Assembly (NCBI RefSeq): GCF_963666255.1
Contig: NZ_OY762656.1
Coordinates: 1,922,001 to 1,986,000, forward strand
Reading direction: 5' to 3'
Length of the DNA: 64,000 nucleotides
DNA from: an uncultured Propionivibrio sp.
Lineage (GTDB): Bacteria; Pseudomonadota; Gammaproteobacteria; Burkholderiales; Rhodocyclaceae
Below, piece after piece: positions 23,765 through 31,532 of the stretch. The number at the start of each line of letters is the position of its first letter. Within the stretch, counting starts at the first letter, position 1. The notes below the pieces were generated by a model. The model ran no database searches and had not been told where the DNA came from. It saw only the letters and a list, made by a program, of their open reading frames with translations. The position numbers and the translations under genes were made by a program.

Positions 23765-23796
23765 AAAAAAACAGGCCGGCGCGCGGGCCGGCCTGT
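23765..23796 (-). terminator. Rho-independent terminator of the kor/nfn operon
   Basis: On the minus strand ACAGGCCGGC pairs with GCCGGCCTGT across a 6-nt loop and leads into a T-run. It starts 17 nt after the stop of the last operon gene at 23814. Confidence 0.9.
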
Positions 23797-23813: not shown

Positions 23814-26000
23814 TTACTGGAACGCCTCGGCGCGCTTGATCAGATCCTCCAGACCCGCTTCGGCCGGATTGCGCGGCTTGCCGGGGTGGATGATCGCGAC
23901 CTGGCAGTTTTCGGCGGCATCGACGAGTTGCGCGAAGGTCCCGGCGCTGACGTCGGCGATATAGGCCTGCTTGTTGCCGTCATAGGCGAACATCTTGTCG
24001 TTGATCTGGATGCACTCGTTGCACGAGGCGCAGCGCGGCGTTTCGATGTAGGCCTCGTCGCTCGATTTCTCGGCTTCCTCGACCGGGGCGGCGCTGGCCG
24101 GCTGCGGCGCGGGCGTCGTTTCGGCGATGACCGGGGCGGGGACGGCGACTTGCACGGCGGCCGGACGGCTGGCTTCCCAGCTGGCCTTCTCACGCGCCAG
24201 CAGCGTCTCGGCGTGCGAGTTGTGGATGCCGCCGAGTTCCTGCAGGCTGTTCCACATCGTCCGGCAGCGTCGGGCTTCGCGCACGAGCTTCTCGGCGACG
24301 ATGACGCGATACAGGATGTTCGATGTATCTGTCATCAGCAGGTAAGGCACCGTGTCGAGCTGGCTGCGGCGCTCGCCGGCGATGAATTCGCCGACCGGCA
24401 CCATGTCCTTGCTCCAGTGCTCCTTCGGCACGCAGGCGAAGTGTTGGCTATAGCGCGTGTCGAGGACGACGAAGTCGATCAGCGTGAAGGGCGTCGGCAG
24501 CTTCACCGTCTGGCAGTGATCGTCCTGGTAGGCGAGATCGCGCATCGTCCAGTCGCTCTCGACCTGGGGATTCTCGGCGATCGAGAAACGAGCCGCCCAG
24601 TTGCGGCCGCCCGCCGGGTTGAACGTGAAAGCGGGGAACAGCCGCGATTCGCGCGCGGCGGCGGCGACGAGGTAGGGCGGGATGCCGGCGGTATTGGGCG
24701 AGTCGCCCGAGTAGATGCTGAACACCGCCGAGCCGCCATAGTCGAGGCCGAGCTGCATCTGCCCGCGCATGCGCACGAGGCTGGCGGACGGGGCCTGCAT
24801 GACGAAGCAGCCGAGGCCCATGGTCATGCGCGCGAGTTGCTTGTTGCGCAGCGTGAAGGCCATGTGGCCGTGCTCGATCAGCGACTTTTCCAGGATGTCG
24901 TCGCTCTGGACGACGATCTTGAACGGCAGGTCGGCCGAGAGGATCTCGGTCAGCGTGCTCTGTTCGGCGCCCGACAGCGCGCTGGCATTGATGCGGATCA
25001 GATAATCGGGGAAGAGCGCCAGCGCTTCCGGATCGAGGCCGTTTTCGCCGAAGGCGTCGAAGAGCGCGTCATGGCGGGCTTCGCTGTATTCGCCGCGGAC
25101 TTCGAGTTCGGCCATGGCGACGGCGCGGGCCAGTTCGATGGCTTTCGGCAGACGGTCACGATAGGCCTTGAGCGCGGCGACGCAGCTGTCGAAGGCAAAC
25201 GAATACGGACGGTTGCCGGCGCCGGCCTTGCTGATGCCGGTCGGGAAGAATTTCTGCGCCTGCAGCGTCGAGATCAGGCCGAGGATGCGCTGGCGGCGGC
25301 GCTTGGGCAGCGCGTCGCGCACCGAGACCTTCTTCAGGATCGACGACATCGCGTCGAAATTGAAGTTGTTGAGCGCGCCGGCGCCGAAGGAATCGCGCAG
25401 GTTGGCGGCGCTCTTGGCGGCGTCGGAGTTGATGTAGTCGGCCTGGATGATGTCCGAGAGCTTGAGGATCAGGCGGTTGAGGTCTTCGTTGAAGCGCTGG
25501 GCGCGGCGCATCTGCGTCAGGCTCCAGGCGTGGCCGAAGAGGCGCGCCGGCAGTTCGCCGTTGCAGTCGAGCAGATCTCCGTCGACAGCGAGGTTGGCGC
25601 GGGCGCGGCGCAGGCTGTCGGCGACGAGGGCGTCGGCCTTGGCGAGCGGTGCCGCGGCGCGGTCCCAGAGTTCGGAGAAGAGGCCGTGCGTGCCGCCGGC
25701 GGCGAGCGCGCGGATGGCCTGTTCGAGGCGCAGCACGTGCTTGCGGATGCGCTCGCCGTCGGGGCCTTGCGCAACCTTGCCGAGAATCGTGTCGATGAGG
25801 CCGGAGAGCGGTTCGGCGAAGCGTTCGCCGGCGGCGTCCTCGATCAGTACCAGCGGAAAGTCGTAACGCATGCGCGTCAGGTCGCCGTAACCGGCGAAGA
25901 GCGCCGGCCGCAGGCCGAGGCGTCCGATGTCGTCGAGCCGGGTCGCCTGCTTCTTGCCGGTCAGGTAGAACGCAACGAAGGATTGCAGATCAGCTTCCAT
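23814..26000 (-). CDS. Unknown 728-aa protein with C-terminal single-cluster ferredoxin module, in the 2-oxoacid oxidoreductase operon
   Basis: The first 600 residues match no family I can name: mostly helical and soluble, without TPP, flavin or NAD motifs that I can see. A Pro/Ala/Glu-rich linker (about 590-650) joins it to a C-terminal module with Cys657, Cys660, Cys663 (CASCNEC) and Cys699 (ENCQVAIIHPGKP), the spacing of a 4Fe-4S ferredoxin. From memory, a similar tail occurs at the end of very long fused 2-oxoacid:ferredoxin oxidoreductases, so this may be a detached electron-transfer subunit; that is inference. ATG 26000 follows GCAGGA; ATG 26018 is less well placed. It is the last gene of the operon, 103 nt after korB, with a hairpin between them. 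Confidence 0.75.
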   Translation of the reverse strand: MEADLQSFVAFYLTGKKQATRLDDIGRLGLRPALFAGYGDLTRMRYDFPLVLIEDAAGERFAEPLSGLIDTILGKVAQGPDGERIRKHVLRLEQAIRALAAGGTHGLFSELWDRAAAPLAKADALVADSLRRARANLAVDGDLLDCNGELPARLFGHAWSLTQMRRAQRFNEDLNRLILKLSDIIQADYINSDAAKSAANLRDSFGAGALNNFNFDAMSSILKKVSVRDALPKRRRQRILGLISTLQAQKFFPTGISKAGAGNRPYSFAFDSCVAALKAYRDRLPKAIELARAVAMAELEVRGEYSEARHDALFDAFGENGLDPEALALFPDYLIRINASALSGAEQSTLTEILSADLPFKIVVQSDDILEKSLIEHGHMAFTLRNKQLARMTMGLGCFVMQAPSASLVRMRGQMQLGLDYGGSAVFSIYSGDSPNTAGIPPYLVAAAARESRLFPAFTFNPAGGRNWAARFSIAENPQVESDWTMRDLAYQDDHCQTVKLPTPFTLIDFVVLDTRYSQHFACVPKEHWSKDMVPVGEFIAGERRSQLDTVPYLLMTDTSNILYRVIVAEKLVREARRCRTMWNSLQELGGIHNSHAETLLAREKASWEASRPAAVQVAVPAPVIAETTPAPQPASAAPVEEAEKSSDEAYIETPRCASCNECIQINDKMFAYDGNKQAYIADVSAGTFAQLVDAAENCQVAIIHPGKPRNPAEAGLEDLIKRAEAFQ

Positions 26001-26061
26001 AATATCCTGCCATCTCAAAGGGTTTCGCCGGGTGGTGCGGCGGAACGCTGTTTATCGGTGG

Positions 26062-26083
26062 CCTCCGCCGCACACGGCGGAGG
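26062..26083. other. Perfect hairpin between korB and the 728-aa gene
   Basis: CCTCCGCCG-CACA-CGGCGGAGG forms a 9-bp perfect GC-rich stem with a 4-nt loop, 20 nt after the korB stop. There is no T-run on either strand, so it is more likely an RNA processing or stabilising element than a terminator. Confidence 0.6.
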
Positions 26084-26103
26084 GTGTCGCATGGTGTGAC
26101 GGA

Positions 26104-27057
26104 TCAGACCTCGTACTTGTCGAATTCAGCCTCCAGCCCCTTGCGCACGATGTCCGGCGTGCGCAGGATGCCGGTCTGCCGGGTGTCCTCGTAGCAGGGA
26201 ATCTCGCGGTTCTGGTAGAGGATGCCGACCGGCACGACATCGGTACTCGAGGCGATTTCGCGCGCCCGGTGGATGTCGAGCGGATCGTGCTTCAGCTGGT
26301 TCTTGTAGACCTTGGCGAGGTTCGGGCTGATCTGCAGCGCATTCTCGTGGTGCAGCAACTGGACCGCGTCCGGCTCCTGCATGTCGGCTTCATGCAGCTT
26401 CGGCAGCCATTCCGGACAGCGCTGCAGGATGCGCACGAAGGAGAAACCCTTGTGGTGATAAGCCGCCTTGACGATCTCGAACAGGCTTTCGGGAATCCAG
26501 TCGACCGCCTGCGCGATGAACGAGGCGTTCGACACGCCGAGCGCAACCGTCAGCGGATTGAGCGCGTCGAGATAGCTGCCGCGCGGCGTCGTGTTGCTCT
26601 TGGTGCCGATCGGCGAGGTCGGCGACGCCTGTTTCTTGGTCAGGCCATAAATCTGATTGTCATGAAGGAAGACGGTCAGGTTCATGTTGTAGCGCAACGC
26701 GTGGATCCAGTGCGCCGCGCCGATGCTGCAGCAGTCGCCGTCGCCGGTGTTGACGAAGATGGTGAGGTCGGGGCGGGCGAGGCGGATGCCTTCGGCGATC
26801 GGCAGCGCGCGGCCGTGGATGCCGTGGAAGCCGTAGGTCTTCATGTAGTGGGGGAAGCGGCTCGAGCAGCCGATGCCGGAGACGAAGACGGTCTTCTCGG
26901 GGCGCAGACCTTCGTCGCGGCAGAGGCGCTGCACCGCGGTCAGGATGGCGTTGTCGCCGCAGCCCGTGCACCAGCGCGGCACGCCGCTCTGGTAGTCCTC
27001 GAGTTCCAGCTTCTCTTCGTAGAGATCGAGCAGGCATTCAGTCGATGAAAATTTCAT
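26104..27057 (-). CDS. korB: 2-oxoacid:ferredoxin oxidoreductase beta subunit (KorB type)
   Basis: The 317-residue TPP-binding subunit. The N-terminal PRWCTGCGDNAILTAVQRL carries two of the cluster cysteines, SGIGCSSRFPHYM the next, and NTGDGDCCSIGAAHWIHALR is the TPP/Mg site, followed by HDNQIYGLTKKQASPTSP. Length and motifs fit KorB/PorB of two-subunit enzymes. It decarboxylates 2-oxoglutarate (or pyruvate) to the acyl-CoA and reduces ferredoxin. It starts 12 nt after korA. The exact 2-oxoacid cannot be read from the sequence; 2-oxoglutarate is favoured by similarity to KorAB of denitrifying aromatic degraders. Confidence 0.93.
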   Translation of the reverse strand: MKFSSTECLLDLYEEKLELEDYQSGVPRWCTGCGDNAILTAVQRLCRDEGLRPEKTVFVSGIGCSSRFPHYMKTYGFHGIHGRALPIAEGIRLARPDLTIFVNTGDGDCCSIGAAHWIHALRYNMNLTVFLHDNQIYGLTKKQASPTSPIGTKSNTTPRGSYLDALNPLTVALGVSNASFIAQAVDWIPESLFEIVKAAYHHKGFSFVRILQRCPEWLPKLHEADMQEPDAVQLLHHENALQISPNLAKVYKNQLKHDPLDIHRAREIASSTDVVPVGILYQNREIPCYEDTRQTGILRTPDIVRKGLEAEFDKYEV

Positions 27058-27069
27058 GATCTCGGTTCC

Positions 27070-28983
27070 TTATTTTTGCAGCTTGTCGAGGAGAACGCGG
27101 CGAATGGTGCTGGGCTTGACGGGTTGTCCCTTGACCTCGGTCCAGCAATCGACATCGACGAGGTAGCGGGCGCGCAGGAGCGTCGCCAGCGCCGAATAGC
27201 GGCGGTTGGTCTCGTCGATGATCTCGTCGGCCGGATCGTCGCTCCAGTTCGTCTCGATCGTCATGACCTTCTTGAAACGCTGCAGGATTTCCTTGATGCC
27301 GGGCTGCATCGGCTGCAGGAAGCGCAGATGCACGCTCGACACCTTCTTGCCTTCGGCACGCAGCGCCGCGGCGGCTTCCTCGATCGCGCCCTTGGTGCTG
27401 CCCCAGCCGACGACGAGCAGGTCGCCCTTGTCGTCGCCGACGACCTCGGGTGGCAGCAGCGTCTTCTGCAGCGCGGCGATCTTCAGGCTGCGCGCGCGCA
27501 GGCCTTCCTGGTTGATGTCGGGGTCATAGGCGACGTGGCTCTGGCGGTCGTGCGCGAGACCGGTGACGGTGTGCATGCCGCCGGGCTGGCCGGGGATGAA
27601 GCGGCGGGCGATGCCGGTCGTTGCGTCCCAGTCGTAGGGCTTGGCGCCGTCGGGGACGGCGCTCTGGTCGATCGGTGGCGCCAGCCAGGCTTCGTTGAAC
27701 TGCGGCCGCGCGAAGGGCTGCTGCGAGGTGGCGAGCATGGCGTCGGTAAGGACGACGACGACGGTGTTGAAGGATTCGGCGATCTTGCGCGCGGTGATCA
27801 TCGAGTAGAAGCATTCCTCGATCGTCGCCGGCGCCATGACGACCTTCGGCGCGTCGCCGTGGCTGCCGTAGATGGCAGTCATCAGGTCGCCCTGTTCGGA
27901 TTTGGTCGGCTGGCCGGTGCTTGGGCCGCCGCGCTGCACGTTGACCACGACCAGCGGGATCTCGGCCATGACGGCGAGGCCGATGGCTTCCTGCTTGAGC
28001 GAGTAGCCCGGTCCCGAGGTGATCGTCACCGTGCACTTGCTGGCGTAGGACGCGCCGACCGCGAAGGCGCAGGCGGCGATTTCGTCTTCGGCCTGATGCA
28101 CGAGACCGCCGACTTTCTCGAAGACGTCGGAGAGGTAGTGCGAGGCCGAGGTCGCCGGTGTGATCGGGTACATCGCGCACAACTCCATGCCCGAGGCCAT
28201 GACGCCGAGCGCCAGCGCGGTATTGCCGTTGGTGGCGATCTGCGCCTGCTTGGCCGGCGTCGCCGGAATGCAGAAGCGATAGTCGAAGTTCTCCGACGCC
28301 CACTTGTGCCCGGCTTCGAGCAGTACGACGTTGGCATCGATGATGGTCTGTGCCTTCTTGCCGAAGGTCAGCGCGATCTGGTCGCGCGCCGCCTGCAGGT
28401 CGAAGCTGTAGAGGTAGCAGAGCATGCCGAGCGCGAACATGTTCTTGCCGCGCTTGGCGTCCGGCGTCAGCTTCAGGCACTCCTGTTCCATCGGCACTTC
28501 GCGCACCTGGTAGCCGGCCTCGACGAGGCGGCTGTAGGTTTCCTTGTAGGCCATCGCGATGTTGATGTCATTGTGCGTGCGCCACATGCTTTCGAGCAGG
28601 ATGATGCAGTTCGGCTTGAGTTCGCGGGCGCGGACGCGGCCGAGCAGCACCTGCTCGTTGAAGGCGACGACGAGGTCGGTCTGGTCGCCGCCGTTGGTGA
28701 CGTAGCCCGAGCCGATACGGATGCGGTTGCCGCTGGCGCCGGCGACGCTGCGGGCCGGCGGCCGGATTTCGGCCGGGATGATCTCGGTCGTCCAGATGCC
28801 GTTGCCCATGCGCGCGGCGATCGAGCCGAGCGACTGGCCGCAGCGCTGGGCACCTTCACCCGAGTCGCTGATGATTTCGACGATGTGTTCCTTGAGTTCG
28901 GTGACGGCCGGACCTGCCGTTTTGCCGGCACTCTTTGCGGCACGCTTGGCGGCGGGCGTCTTGCTGGTTTTCTGTGCACTCAT
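27070..28983 (-). CDS. korA: 2-oxoacid:ferredoxin oxidoreductase alpha subunit with fused gamma domain (KorA type)
   Basis: A 637-residue fusion. After a Lys/Ala-rich leader (about 1-28) comes the gamma domain (GEGAQRCGQSLGSIAARMGNG), then the pyrimidine-binding alpha domain (MYPITPATSASHYLSD, HQAEDEIAACAFAVGASYA, TSGPGYSLKQEAIGLA, RGGPSTGQPTKSEQGDL) and the transketolase-C-like end (VVGWGSTKGAIEEAA). Fused gamma-alpha is usual for KorA. ATG 28983 is preferred; a TTG at 28998 would add five residues. It is the central gene of the redox operon and forms the catalytic heterodimer with KorB. Confidence 0.94.
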   Translation of the reverse strand: MSAQKTSKTPAAKRAAKSAGKTAGPAVTELKEHIVEIISDSGEGAQRCGQSLGSIAARMGNGIWTTEIIPAEIRPPARSVAGASGNRIRIGSGYVTNGGDQTDLVVAFNEQVLLGRVRARELKPNCIILLESMWRTHNDINIAMAYKETYSRLVEAGYQVREVPMEQECLKLTPDAKRGKNMFALGMLCYLYSFDLQAARDQIALTFGKKAQTIIDANVVLLEAGHKWASENFDYRFCIPATPAKQAQIATNGNTALALGVMASGMELCAMYPITPATSASHYLSDVFEKVGGLVHQAEDEIAACAFAVGASYASKCTVTITSGPGYSLKQEAIGLAVMAEIPLVVVNVQRGGPSTGQPTKSEQGDLMTAIYGSHGDAPKVVMAPATIEECFYSMITARKIAESFNTVVVVLTDAMLATSQQPFARPQFNEAWLAPPIDQSAVPDGAKPYDWDATTGIARRFIPGQPGGMHTVTGLAHDRQSHVAYDPDINQEGLRARSLKIAALQKTLLPPEVVGDDKGDLLVVGWGSTKGAIEEAAAALRAEGKKVSSVHLRFLQPMQPGIKEILQRFKKVMTIETNWSDDPADEIIDETNRRYSALATLLRARYLVDVDCWTEVKGQPVKPSTIRRVLLDKLQK

Positions 28984-29033
28984 GTCGGGAAGTTCCAATG
29001 GTTTCCGTTTGAGGGAGAGGATCGGTGCGCGGC

Positions 29034-30527
29034 TCAGGCAGTCTTCAGCCGCACGAAGGCGCGTTCGCCGCTGTCGATGCCGAACAGCGTGTCGGTGCCG
29101 GCGTCATAGGGGGCGTCGTCGTCGCGCAGGCCGAGGTAGGCCTTCATGCTCTTGGCGGCGCGCCGTCCGGCGCCCATCGCTTCGATGACCGTGGCGGCGC
29201 CGGTGACGATGTCGCCGCCGGCGAAGACGCCGGCCAGCGAGGTCGCCAGCGTTTCATCGGTGTCGATATAGCCCCACTTGTTGAGCCGCAGGCCCGAGGT
29301 CTGGCCCATGATCGGGTTGGCATTGGTGCCGATGGCATAGACGACCATGTCGACCTCGAAGTCGAATTCGCTGCCGGGCACCGGCACCGGGCGGCGCCGG
29401 CCGGATTCGTCGGGTTCGCCGAGTTCCATGCGCACGCAGCGCATGCCGCGCACCTTGCCTTCGCCGTCGTTGAGGATGGCGATCGGGTGGGTCAGCCAGT
29501 GGAATTCGACGCCTTCCTCGGTGGCGTGGTGCAGTTCTTCGGCGCGGGCCGGCGCTTCCTTCTGCGAGCGGCGATAGACGCAATAGACCTTTTCGGCGCC
29601 GAGGCGGACGGAGACGCGTGTCGCGTCCATCGCCGTGTTGCCGGCGCCGACGACGGCGACGCGCTTGCCGATCGGCTGCGGCGTGTCGAAGTTCGGGAAG
29701 TCGCGGGCGCGCATCAGGTTGCAGCGCGTCAGGAGTTCGTTGGCCGAGAGCACGCCGTTGAGCGAGTCGCCGGGAATGCCGAGCGTCGTCGGGTAGCCGG
29801 CGCCGACGCCGACGAAAACGGCGTCGAAGCCCATCTCGGAAATCATCTGTTCGAGCGTGAACAGGCGGCCGACGAGGGTATTGCATTCGAACTTGACGCC
29901 GAGCTTGATGAGGTTGGCGATTTCAGCGTCGATGACCGTGTTCGGCAGGCGGAAGTCGGGGATGCCGTACTTGAGTACGCCGCCGGCCTGGTGGAAGGCC
30001 TCGAAGACGGTGACCTCGCAGCCCGCCTTGGCCATGTCGGCGGCACAGGCCATGCCGGCCGGGCCGGAGCCGACGACGCCGACCTTGAAGCCGTTCTTCT
30101 CGATGTAGGGAATGTTGGCCCAGCCTTCGCGGATCGCGGTGTCGCCGACGAAGCGTTCGAGCCGGCCGATGGCGACGGCTTCGAGCGATTCGCCGACCGT
30201 GCACACGCCTTCGCACTGGTTTTCCTGCGGGCAGACGCGGCCGCAGATCGCCGGCAGCAGGCTGGTCTGGGTCAGGATGTCGTAAGCGCCGCGCAGATCC
30301 TTCGCATTGATCTTCTGGATGAAGCCCGGGATGTTGATGCCGACCGGGCAGCCGGAGACGCAGGGCTGGTCGGGGCAGACGAGGCAGCGCTCGGATTCGC
30401 GCAGCGCGTCGTCGGGATGATAGCCGCATGCCACTTCTTCAAAGTTCTTCGCCCGGATCGCCGGCGCCTGCTCGGGCATCGGCGTGCGTTCCTGGGGAAT
30501 CGTCCGGATGGTTTTCTTTTTCGCCAT
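29034..30527 (-). CDS. nfnB: NADPH-binding iron-sulfur flavoprotein, NfnB/GltD-like
   Basis: The 497-residue protein starts with a two-cluster iron-sulfur domain (RCLVCPDQPCVSGCPVG and ICGRVCPQENQCEGVC), followed by an FAD site (VGVVGSGPAGMACAADMAKAG) and an NADPH site (VAVVGAGNTAMDATR), and ends with the FAD contact GVFAGGDIVTGAATVIEA. This is the architecture of GltD, SudA and NfnB. No glutamate synthase large subunit is near, whereas an NfnA-like gene is directly upstream, so an Nfn/Sud-type complex is the best reading. AGGCAGGACC precedes ATG 30527. It probably passes electrons between ferredoxin and NADP(H) for KorAB. Confidence 0.85.
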   Translation of the reverse strand: MAKKKTIRTIPQERTPMPEQAPAIRAKNFEEVACGYHPDDALRESERCLVCPDQPCVSGCPVGINIPGFIQKINAKDLRGAYDILTQTSLLPAICGRVCPQENQCEGVCTVGESLEAVAIGRLERFVGDTAIREGWANIPYIEKNGFKVGVVGSGPAGMACAADMAKAGCEVTVFEAFHQAGGVLKYGIPDFRLPNTVIDAEIANLIKLGVKFECNTLVGRLFTLEQMISEMGFDAVFVGVGAGYPTTLGIPGDSLNGVLSANELLTRCNLMRARDFPNFDTPQPIGKRVAVVGAGNTAMDATRVSVRLGAEKVYCVYRRSQKEAPARAEELHHATEEGVEFHWLTHPIAILNDGEGKVRGMRCVRMELGEPDESGRRRPVPVPGSEFDFEVDMVVYAIGTNANPIMGQTSGLRLNKWGYIDTDETLATSLAGVFAGGDIVTGAATVIEAMGAGRRAAKSMKAYLGLRDDDAPYDAGTDTLFGIDSGERAFVRLKTA

Positions 30528-30584
30528 GGGGTCCTGCCTTGATATAAGTGCGTGAAAGGGGACTGCGTTCGTCGCTGCTGCCGC

Positions 30585-31532
30585 TCAGGCCTTGGCCGGC
30601 CGGGCGCTCTTGGCGCGCTTGGCGGCCGGCTTCTTGGCAGATTCGGTGCCCATCGCCGCGTTGACCGCAGCCTCTGCCGCTTTCTGCATGCGGCAGGCCT
30701 TGTCTTCGTTCCAGTGGTCGAGCGCCATGCGCTCTTCCTTCGAGTAGCGGCGCAGGCGGGTCATCATGTCGAGGAAGTCGACCTTGTGGCCGTCGAAGTC
30801 GGGGCCGTCGACGCAGGCGAACTTGACCTTGTCGCCGACCTTGACGCGGCAGCCGCCGCACATGCCGGTGCCATCGACCATCAGCGGGTTGAGGCTGACC
30901 ATGGTCTTGATGCCGTAGGGCCGCGTCGTGTCGGCGCATCCCTTCATCATGATCATCGGGCCGATGGCGACGACTTCGTCGATGTCGCGGTGGCGCTGGA
31001 TCGCCTGTTCGAGGCCGAGCGTCACGAGGCCCTTGATGCCGACCGAGCCGTCGTCGGAGCAGATGATGAATTCGTCGCAGCAGGCGCGGAACTTGTCGTC
31101 CCAGAAGACCAGGTCCTTGTTGCGGAAACCGACGACGCCGATGACATAGGCGCCGGATTCCTTGTAGGCGCGGGCCTGCGGATAGACCGGCGCGACGCCG
31201 AGGCCGCCGCCGACGCAGACGACCTTGCGCGCATGGCCGATGGTGCTCGGCACGCCCATCGGGCCGACCAGCGCGTAGAGCGAGGTGCCGACCTTGCAGG
31301 CGTCCTGCATTTCGCGCGTGGTCTTGCCGACGGCCTGGATCACCAGCGTGATCGTGCCCTTGTCGACGTCATAGTCGGCGATGGTCAGCGGGATGCGTTC
31401 GCCGTGCTCGTGGAGCATGACGATGACGAACTGTCCGGGCTTGGCCGCCTTGGCCATTAACGGGTGACGTACTTCAAGCAGGTACGTGACGTCGGAGAAG
31501 TCCTCGCGCGCCACGATTTCAAAATTTGCCAT
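30585..31532 (-). CDS. nfnA: FNR-like FAD/NAD-binding subunit with 2Fe-2S cluster, NfnA/SudB-like
   Basis: A 315-residue ferredoxin-NADP reductase-fold protein. The FAD domain has GQFVIVMLHEHGERIPLTI, the nucleotide site VVCVGGGLGVAPVYPQARA, and the C-terminal cysteine motif DGTGMCGGCRVKVG with KFACVDGPDFDGHKVDF, typical of NfnA/SudB 2Fe-2S subunits. A Lys/Ala-rich tail of about 20 residues (AAKRAKSARPAKA) ends it and resembles the KorA leader. It is the first gene of the five-gene operon. In thermophile Nfn complexes this subunit binds NADH; whether bifurcation happens here is unknown. Confidence 0.86.
   Translation of the reverse strand: MANFEIVAREDFSDVTYLLEVRHPLMAKAAKPGQFVIVMLHEHGERIPLTIADYDVDKGTITLVIQAVGKTTREMQDACKVGTSLYALVGPMGVPSTIGHARKVVCVGGGLGVAPVYPQARAYKESGAYVIGVVGFRNKDLVFWDDKFRACCDEFIICSDDGSVGIKGLVTLGLEQAIQRHRDIDEVVAIGPMIMMKGCADTTRPYGIKTMVSLNPLMVDGTGMCGGCRVKVGDKVKFACVDGPDFDGHKVDFLDMMTRLRRYSKEERMALDHWNEDKACRMQKAAEAAVNAAMGTESAKKPAAKRAKSARPAKA

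Follow-up and report, generated by a model that had tools for sequence, protein, structure and literature searches.

In a 64,000-nucleotide stretch of an uncultured Propionivibrio sp. (contig NZ_OY762656.1, positions 1,922,001 to 1,986,000; hereafter the window), we analyzed five consecutive genes on the minus strand, running from 31532 down to 23814. These are an nfnA-like gene (30585..31532; NfnS, with FAD, NAD and [2Fe-2S] sites), an nfnB-like gene (29034..30527; NfnL, with FAD, two [4Fe-4S] clusters and NADPH), a korA-like gene for a fused gamma-alpha subunit (27070..28998), a korB-like gene for the beta subunit (26104..27057) and a gene for a 728-aa protein (23814..26000). The gaps between them are, in order, 57, 35-50 (depending on the korA start), 12 and 103 nt. 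The korA gene starts from a TTG at 28998 or from an alternative ATG at 28983, and the ATG of the last gene at 26000 is residue 7 of a 734-aa frame that opens with TTG. A terminator-like hairpin, a pattern match only, lies at 23771..23796 on the same strand, with 10 pairs (8 GC) followed by a T run. The scan shows no surplus of such hairpins (12 against an expected 9.5 +/- 3.2); the terminator claim therefore rests on the 23796-23771 hairpin being the strongest on its strand. A chance arrangement of the five genes is excluded by their conserved order. Thus, the coordinates and the hairpin bear out the initial annotation, which had described five genes on one strand with short gaps and one terminator at the end.

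The 728-aa protein has no NCBIfam match, and its only Pfam matches are a sub-cut-off Fer4_13 (20.7 bits, cut-off 24.5) and a weaker Fer4_15, both in the C-terminal tail. No Pfam match to the POR_N (alpha) or POR (gamma) domains was found in it. Residues 98-591 (24228..25709) carry the C-terminal beta-domain fold of pyruvate:ferredoxin oxidoreductase (PFOR/NifJ) without thiamine pyrophosphate (TPP) or Fe-S sites, and the protein has detectable sequence homology to PFORs with a ferredoxin tail. The structure searches in the PDB compared the fold of one predicted monomer. A Pro/Ala-rich linker of low confidence (residues 619-643, 24072..24146; predicted local distance difference test score <50) precedes a single [4Fe-4S] ferredoxin tail (residues 647-728, 23814..24062). 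The tail matches Desulfovibrio africanus ferredoxin I in the PDB (phmmer E 0.00037; profile E 1.3e-05) and 1fxr by Foldseek (TMt 0.78, root-mean-square deviation 1.8, E 0.065), and it shows both the CxxCxxC...C pattern and the fold of a single-cluster ferredoxin. Its C657, C660, C663 and C699 (23904..24032), cluster ligands by homology, stand where the initial annotation had placed them. No variation occurs at them in alignments of 15 and of 68 sequences, and the four are kept in 80/80 of the largest set. Fer4_13, below the cut-off in the window protein, is above it in the relative at locus L173.

Motif counts were made on 80 aligned copies (the window and 79 others), with the broken copy at L106 omitted. 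None of the 80 copies has Cys at any of the eight Fer4 positions. Three of the four proximal-cluster positions likewise have Cys in 0/80 copies, and the second (C146) is kept in 80/80. At the aligned columns, 0/80 copies have the TPP-motif GDG and N, compared to 9/9 tailed PFORs. GDG triplets picked up by a regular expression in ten 728-type proteins lie off the TPP columns in the alignment and were rejected as TPP motifs. The nine tailed PFORs keep every scored residue, except the fourth tail Cys at locus L020. The losses and the kept tail Cys recur in 11 standalone proteins that are more distantly related (L170-L178, L180, L181), 2/11 of which have C146. In the tree, a 100/100 branch separates the standalone proteins (32 rows) from the nine tailed PFORs and 10 TPP-less PFOR relatives. 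L179 (G480), with korA and tail-gene frames broken in the assembly, was omitted from the motif and tree sets, and L026 (frame broken) from the PFOR set. As judged from sequence, the 728-aa protein derives from the C-terminal half of a PFOR; its TPP site and three Fe-S clusters are lost, and its fold and the tail are kept. A PFOR-derived beta domain thus accounts for residues 1-600, which had been assigned to no recognised family. The family matched, that of PFOR C-terminal halves, is a related one and not an established unrelated one. One relative (L170:8152-11070, G651:C65) has three ferredoxin-tail matches in one 972-residue frame within an nfn-type operon. We also observed, in G237, G210, G064 and other genomes of a phylum survey, open frames of ~550 residues matching profile positions ~382-520, which are possibly separate beta-type subunits of other oxidoreductases.

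A search of genome contigs gave 320 matching stretches and 262 relatives, and neighborhoods were read for the best 80 of the 262. By title, these 80 are mostly betaproteobacterial metagenome-assembled genomes, and the named strains include Propionivibrio soli and Ramlibacter lithotrophicus. A few are labelled as other phyla, where mis-binning is possible; the five-gene run also occurs in L089, L091 and L101, from assemblies labelled Spirochaetia, Acidobacteria and Chitinophaga, by transfer or mis-binning. All five genes are ordered on one strand in 57/80 loci. The other 23 loci run out no more than 4.7 kb upstream, with all genes present for which there is room. Among 340 genomes of the order, eight have a full-length or near-full-length standalone copy, and the same eight have KorA with at least 71% identity. 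Seven of these carry both on one contig, a few hundred bases apart and together with korB; in G044 a contig break lies between them. Another 15 matching genomes of the 340 hold the tailed-PFOR type or cut forms only, as judged by open-frame size. In a sample of 369 genomes of the class, the standalone gene shares a contig with korA in all 12 that have KorA at 55% identity or more, and it is absent from all 13 with KorA only at 34-40%. In one more genome, G776, the 6-kb contig with the gene breaks off before reaching korB.

The second partner is exchangeable. In the loci L171-L181 the gene follows korAB in 10/11 (L174 is a cut contig), and an rnfB homologue is present in 11/11 and rnfC in 8/11. 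Neither nfnA nor nfnB was found within the stretches fetched for these 11 loci. At L173 the order is sdhB-like, sdhA-like, nuoF-like, korA, korB, an 822-aa protein, rnfB, a TPP-less PFOR, sucC, sucD and rnfC. The rnfB of these loci is usually accompanied by such a TPP-less PFOR relative with two CxxCxxC sites. These proteins, larger than the standalone subunit and found at L173:11214-15074 with counterparts in L171, L172 and L175-L181, adjoin rnfB, retain two Fer4 sites and may represent another PFOR that was decommissioned and connected to Rnf.

Rnf and Nfn are also the two companions of those tailed PFORs that are catalytically complete. In 9/10 loci (L025, L026, L182-L188) rnfB and rnfC adjoin or lie near the PFOR gene, which is directly between them in eight; at L187 rnfC is adjacent and rnfB farther away. 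In the own genome, the tailed PFOR (L020:8202-16030, 1662 aa) has a 954-aa NfnB-NfnA fusion directly downstream, with 39.5% identity to NfnB and 41.5% to NfnA of the window. This pair is located beside a four-gene set resembling phenylglyoxylate dehydrogenase-type oxidoreductases. Either enzyme type, a tailed PFOR or a KorAB that has a tailed subunit, thus occurs with either module, Rnf or Nfn. This two-by-two pattern is the strongest argument for the tailed half as the element that connects 2-oxoacid oxidoreductases with modules for electron exchange. On gene neighborhoods, korAB is the constant partner of the 728-aa family, and nfn or rnf is the exchangeable second one. The expectation that the gene travels with both korAB and nfnAB held in its first part, since korAB lies beside the homologues wherever the DNA allowed a check, and not in its second, since nfnAB can be replaced by rnf. 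The refuting outcome, homologues lying mostly away from kor or nfn genes, did not occur in the examined loci.

The four partners were identified by family profiles, PDB matches and motifs. NfnA scores 383.8 bits with NF004862 (cut-off 220) and matches PDB 5jca_S (E 4.4e-98), with D..C..C and FACVDGP both present. NfnB scores 577.4 bits with TIGR01316 (cut-off 471.75), matches 4ylf_B (E 2.2e-169) and has the CPQExQC motif. Both Nfn subunits thus pass the cut-offs and hold the FAD, [2Fe-2S] (D and three Cys) and [4Fe-4S] ligand motifs, whose residues we take to be the cluster binders. KorA, which has the YPITPAT motif, scores 513.6 bits with TIGR03710 (cut-off 482.75) and matches 6n2n_A, the Magnetococcus 2-oxoglutarate oxidoreductase (OGOR; E 3.8e-73). 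KorB matches 5b46_B (E 1.7e-54) and 6n2n_B (E 1.7e-50), and its intact TPP motif and four cluster Cys, together with the KorA score, are those of a two-subunit 2-oxoacid oxidoreductase. Among complete relatives, the cofactor motifs are kept in 70/70 (KorB TPP), 61/61 (KorA YPITPAT), 58/58 (NfnB CPQExQC) and 53/54 copies (NfnA D..C..C). The Lys/Ala-rich KorA N-terminus and the NfnA C-terminus were considered as docking arms and rejected as unconserved (median charge -2 for the NfnA tail in 56 copies, +4 for the KorA head in 61).

The context hints at the substrate. The nearest solved relative of KorA being the Magnetococcus enzyme was counted for 2-oxoglutarate. The gene sucA (2-oxoglutarate dehydrogenase E1, TIGR00239) was not found in the own genome (G000, 98% complete), and in five relatives (L034, L046, L047/L040, L048, L053/L037) the operon has sucA-sucB-lpd at a distance of 3-4 kb. 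Four rnf-type loci (L173, L176, L179, L180) hold sucCD and flavoprotein and iron-sulfur genes of the succinate dehydrogenase/fumarate reductase type. From these hints, the substrate would most likely be 2-oxoglutarate. Within the genus, sucA is absent from 7/18 members with the 728-aa gene and 1/10 without it (4/12 and 0/6 at 90% completeness or more). As raw counts, these are only suggestive of the operon as a replacement for sucA.

Taken together, the 728-aa protein probably passes the electrons of the neighboring 2-oxoacid oxidoreductase to an NADPH-making partner. We give a probability of roughly 0.72 to the explanation as a whole, in which a dead PFOR half with a tethered ferredoxin would wire KorAB to Nfn or Rnf; homology, motif losses, the tail, linkage and partner exchange all point to it. 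The electron-wiring role proposed in the initial annotation fits all of this evidence. The pseudo-beta body would dock on KorAB, on the partner module or on both, and the linker could let the tail swing as an arm between the KorB cluster and NfnB. The tail would take electrons singly from the [4Fe-4S] cluster of KorB and hand them to the clusters of NfnB. The most likely net reaction would be 2-oxoglutarate + CoA -> succinyl-CoA + CO2, with the reduced tail ferredoxin and NADH reducing 2 NADP+ through Nfn (confurcation). This direction is our choice; the complex may instead run backwards, as a reductive carboxylation powered by NADPH. Elsewhere in the Gammaproteobacteria, Rnf would be the module coupled to the same KorAB-tail unit, which would exchange electrons with NADH and an ion gradient. 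We see an even chance that the adaptor is a portable plug, wiring a 2-oxoglutarate oxidoreductase into Nfn for soluble NADPH/NADH exchange or into ion-pumping Rnf, so that 2-oxoglutarate turnover and flavin-based confurcation or bifurcation would share one tethered ferredoxin in one complex.

Several observations weigh against this explanation. The 728-aa model aligned to whole PFOR chains with a low TM-score (0.24 by query length; root-mean-square deviation 5.6), and the alignment behind the motif losses has large deletions where the cluster sites lie. KorB scores 248.1 bits with TIGR02177, below the cut-off of 261.9. As 182 of the 262 relatives lie outside the examined set, exceptions to the korAB linkage may exist. 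Among genus members with the 728-aa gene, 11/18 keep sucA. Moreover, the own genome has at least six other POR-domain genes, one of them in an Azoarcus-like gene order at L022, so the missing sucA does not single out the window operon.

Among the alternatives, the reductive direction survives best, although we consider it doubtful. Here the tail ferredoxin would be driven by NAD(P)H via Nfn, or by NADH via Rnf, and KorAB would carboxylate succinyl-CoA to 2-oxoglutarate in a partial reverse tricarboxylic acid (TCA) cycle or for glutamate synthesis. The sucCD and succinate dehydrogenase/fumarate reductase-type genes of the four rnf-type loci and the closeness of KorA to the Magnetococcus OGOR are consistent with it. 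So is PMC6315080, in which sulfur-oxidising symbionts have dimeric korAB close to genes of the TCA cycle, and genes for electron bifurcation adjoin those of a four-subunit OGOR. However, a complete TCA cycle in the own genome without sucA needs the oxidative route, and sequence cannot reveal direction.

It is unlikely that the protein only stabilizes or localizes KorAB, or shields it from oxygen, with Nfn acting separately through soluble ferredoxin. The body does evolve faster than the four other products, as could be expected of a scaffold: against the nearest relative (G005, locus L029), the ratio of nonsynonymous to synonymous substitution rates (dN/dS) is 0.149 for the whole 728-aa gene and 0.006-0.125 for the other four, all five (0.006 to 0.15) being under purifying selection. 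But the ferredoxin tail, superfluous for a pure scaffold, is its most conserved part (dN/dS ~0.03, four Cys 80/80), and L170 has three copies of it.

Less likely still, the operon would supply low-potential electrons to nitrogenase or benzoyl-CoA reductase with Nfn as an auxiliary input, as proposed for AadN of Rhodopseudomonas palustris. Indeed, nifH is above the cut-off in the own genome, and AadN contributes to the reduction of benzoyl-CoA and, in a variant form, to the fixation of nitrogen (PMC9973337). However, nifH over the cut-off occurs in 9/18 genus members with the gene and 4/10 without it, which reveals no clear link, and the absence of any HGD-D family protein from the own genome led us to reject a link to aromatic degradation. 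A decaying, functionless PFOR remnant, despite the loss of every catalytic motif of its relatives, is highly improbable given the purifying selection, the fixed operon position and the 78/80 complete orthologues (of the other two, L052 runs to the contig end and L106 is broken).

Compared with single-chain PFOR/NifJ (Moorella 6cin, Desulfovibrio africanus 1b0p), the 728-aa protein shares the fold and order of the C-terminal half. It differs in having no alpha or gamma domains, TPP motif, Fer4 or complete proximal cluster and in its added C-terminal ferredoxin, and it would work, if at all, as the partner of a separate KorAB. The window KorA and KorB share architecture and motifs with two-subunit 2-oxoacid:ferredoxin oxidoreductases (Magnetococcus 6n2n; Sulfolobus 5b46/5b48), whose structures, unlike the window operon, include no adaptor subunit or linked Nfn. 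Both Nfn subunits and their cofactor motifs are shared with known Nfn (NfnAB/NfnSL; Thermotoga 4ylf, Pyrococcus 5jca), but the window genes stand in one run with KorAB and a dedicated ferredoxin-tailed subunit.

The 2-oxoglutarate:NADP+ oxidoreductase of Azoarcus evansii, reportedly of three subunits with genes for a GltD-like flavoprotein, gamma-alpha and beta in one run, resembles the proposed complex as a 2-oxoacid oxidoreductase coupled to NADP+. This three-gene order is found at L022 and not in the window, with its five genes and separate NfnA and NfnB. The analogy drawn in the initial annotation to such enzymes of aromatic degraders thus fell away, also for the missing HGD-D.

The accessible part of PMC9973337 describes AadN as an Nfn homologue serving low-potential electron transfer in R. 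palustris, and thus, like the window Nfn, a proteobacterial one tied to this role. AadN is a fused single chain in an aromatic gene cluster, whereas the window has separate NfnA and NfnB genes (the fusion is at L020), and it occurs in strains lacking the korAB of that cluster (Table 4). As a further likeness, PMC6315080, in its accessible part, reports dimeric korAB near TCA genes in sulfur-oxidising Gammaproteobacteria and suggests that bifurcating complexes feed OGOR; a ferredoxin-tailed subunit or Nfn goes unmentioned there. Full-text literature searches returned no description of such a cluster or adaptor, a limited negative with most subscription papers outside their coverage. What is new is the linking subunit: it joins known modules, and neither its origin nor its role had been named.

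The usual view of the well-known systems KorAB, Nfn, Rnf and PFOR has ferredoxin moving freely from one to another. In the present family, ferredoxin seems instead to be covalently attached to an enzyme half that was decommissioned, with one constant partner (KorAB) and two alternatives (Nfn, Rnf). If true, this would explain how many mostly uncultured Proteobacteria, some of which lack 2-oxoglutarate dehydrogenase E1, link their 2-oxoglutarate step with NADPH or with the pumping of ions. It would also be a clear example of wiring made from a former catalytic domain, and it names a protein family left unannotated by Pfam and NCBIfam.

The own genome holds two further 2-oxoacid oxidoreductase loci with GltD-like flavoproteins (L022:3305-8117 and L023:5117-9635). 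The L023 flavoprotein (813 aa) carries a fused POR gamma domain.

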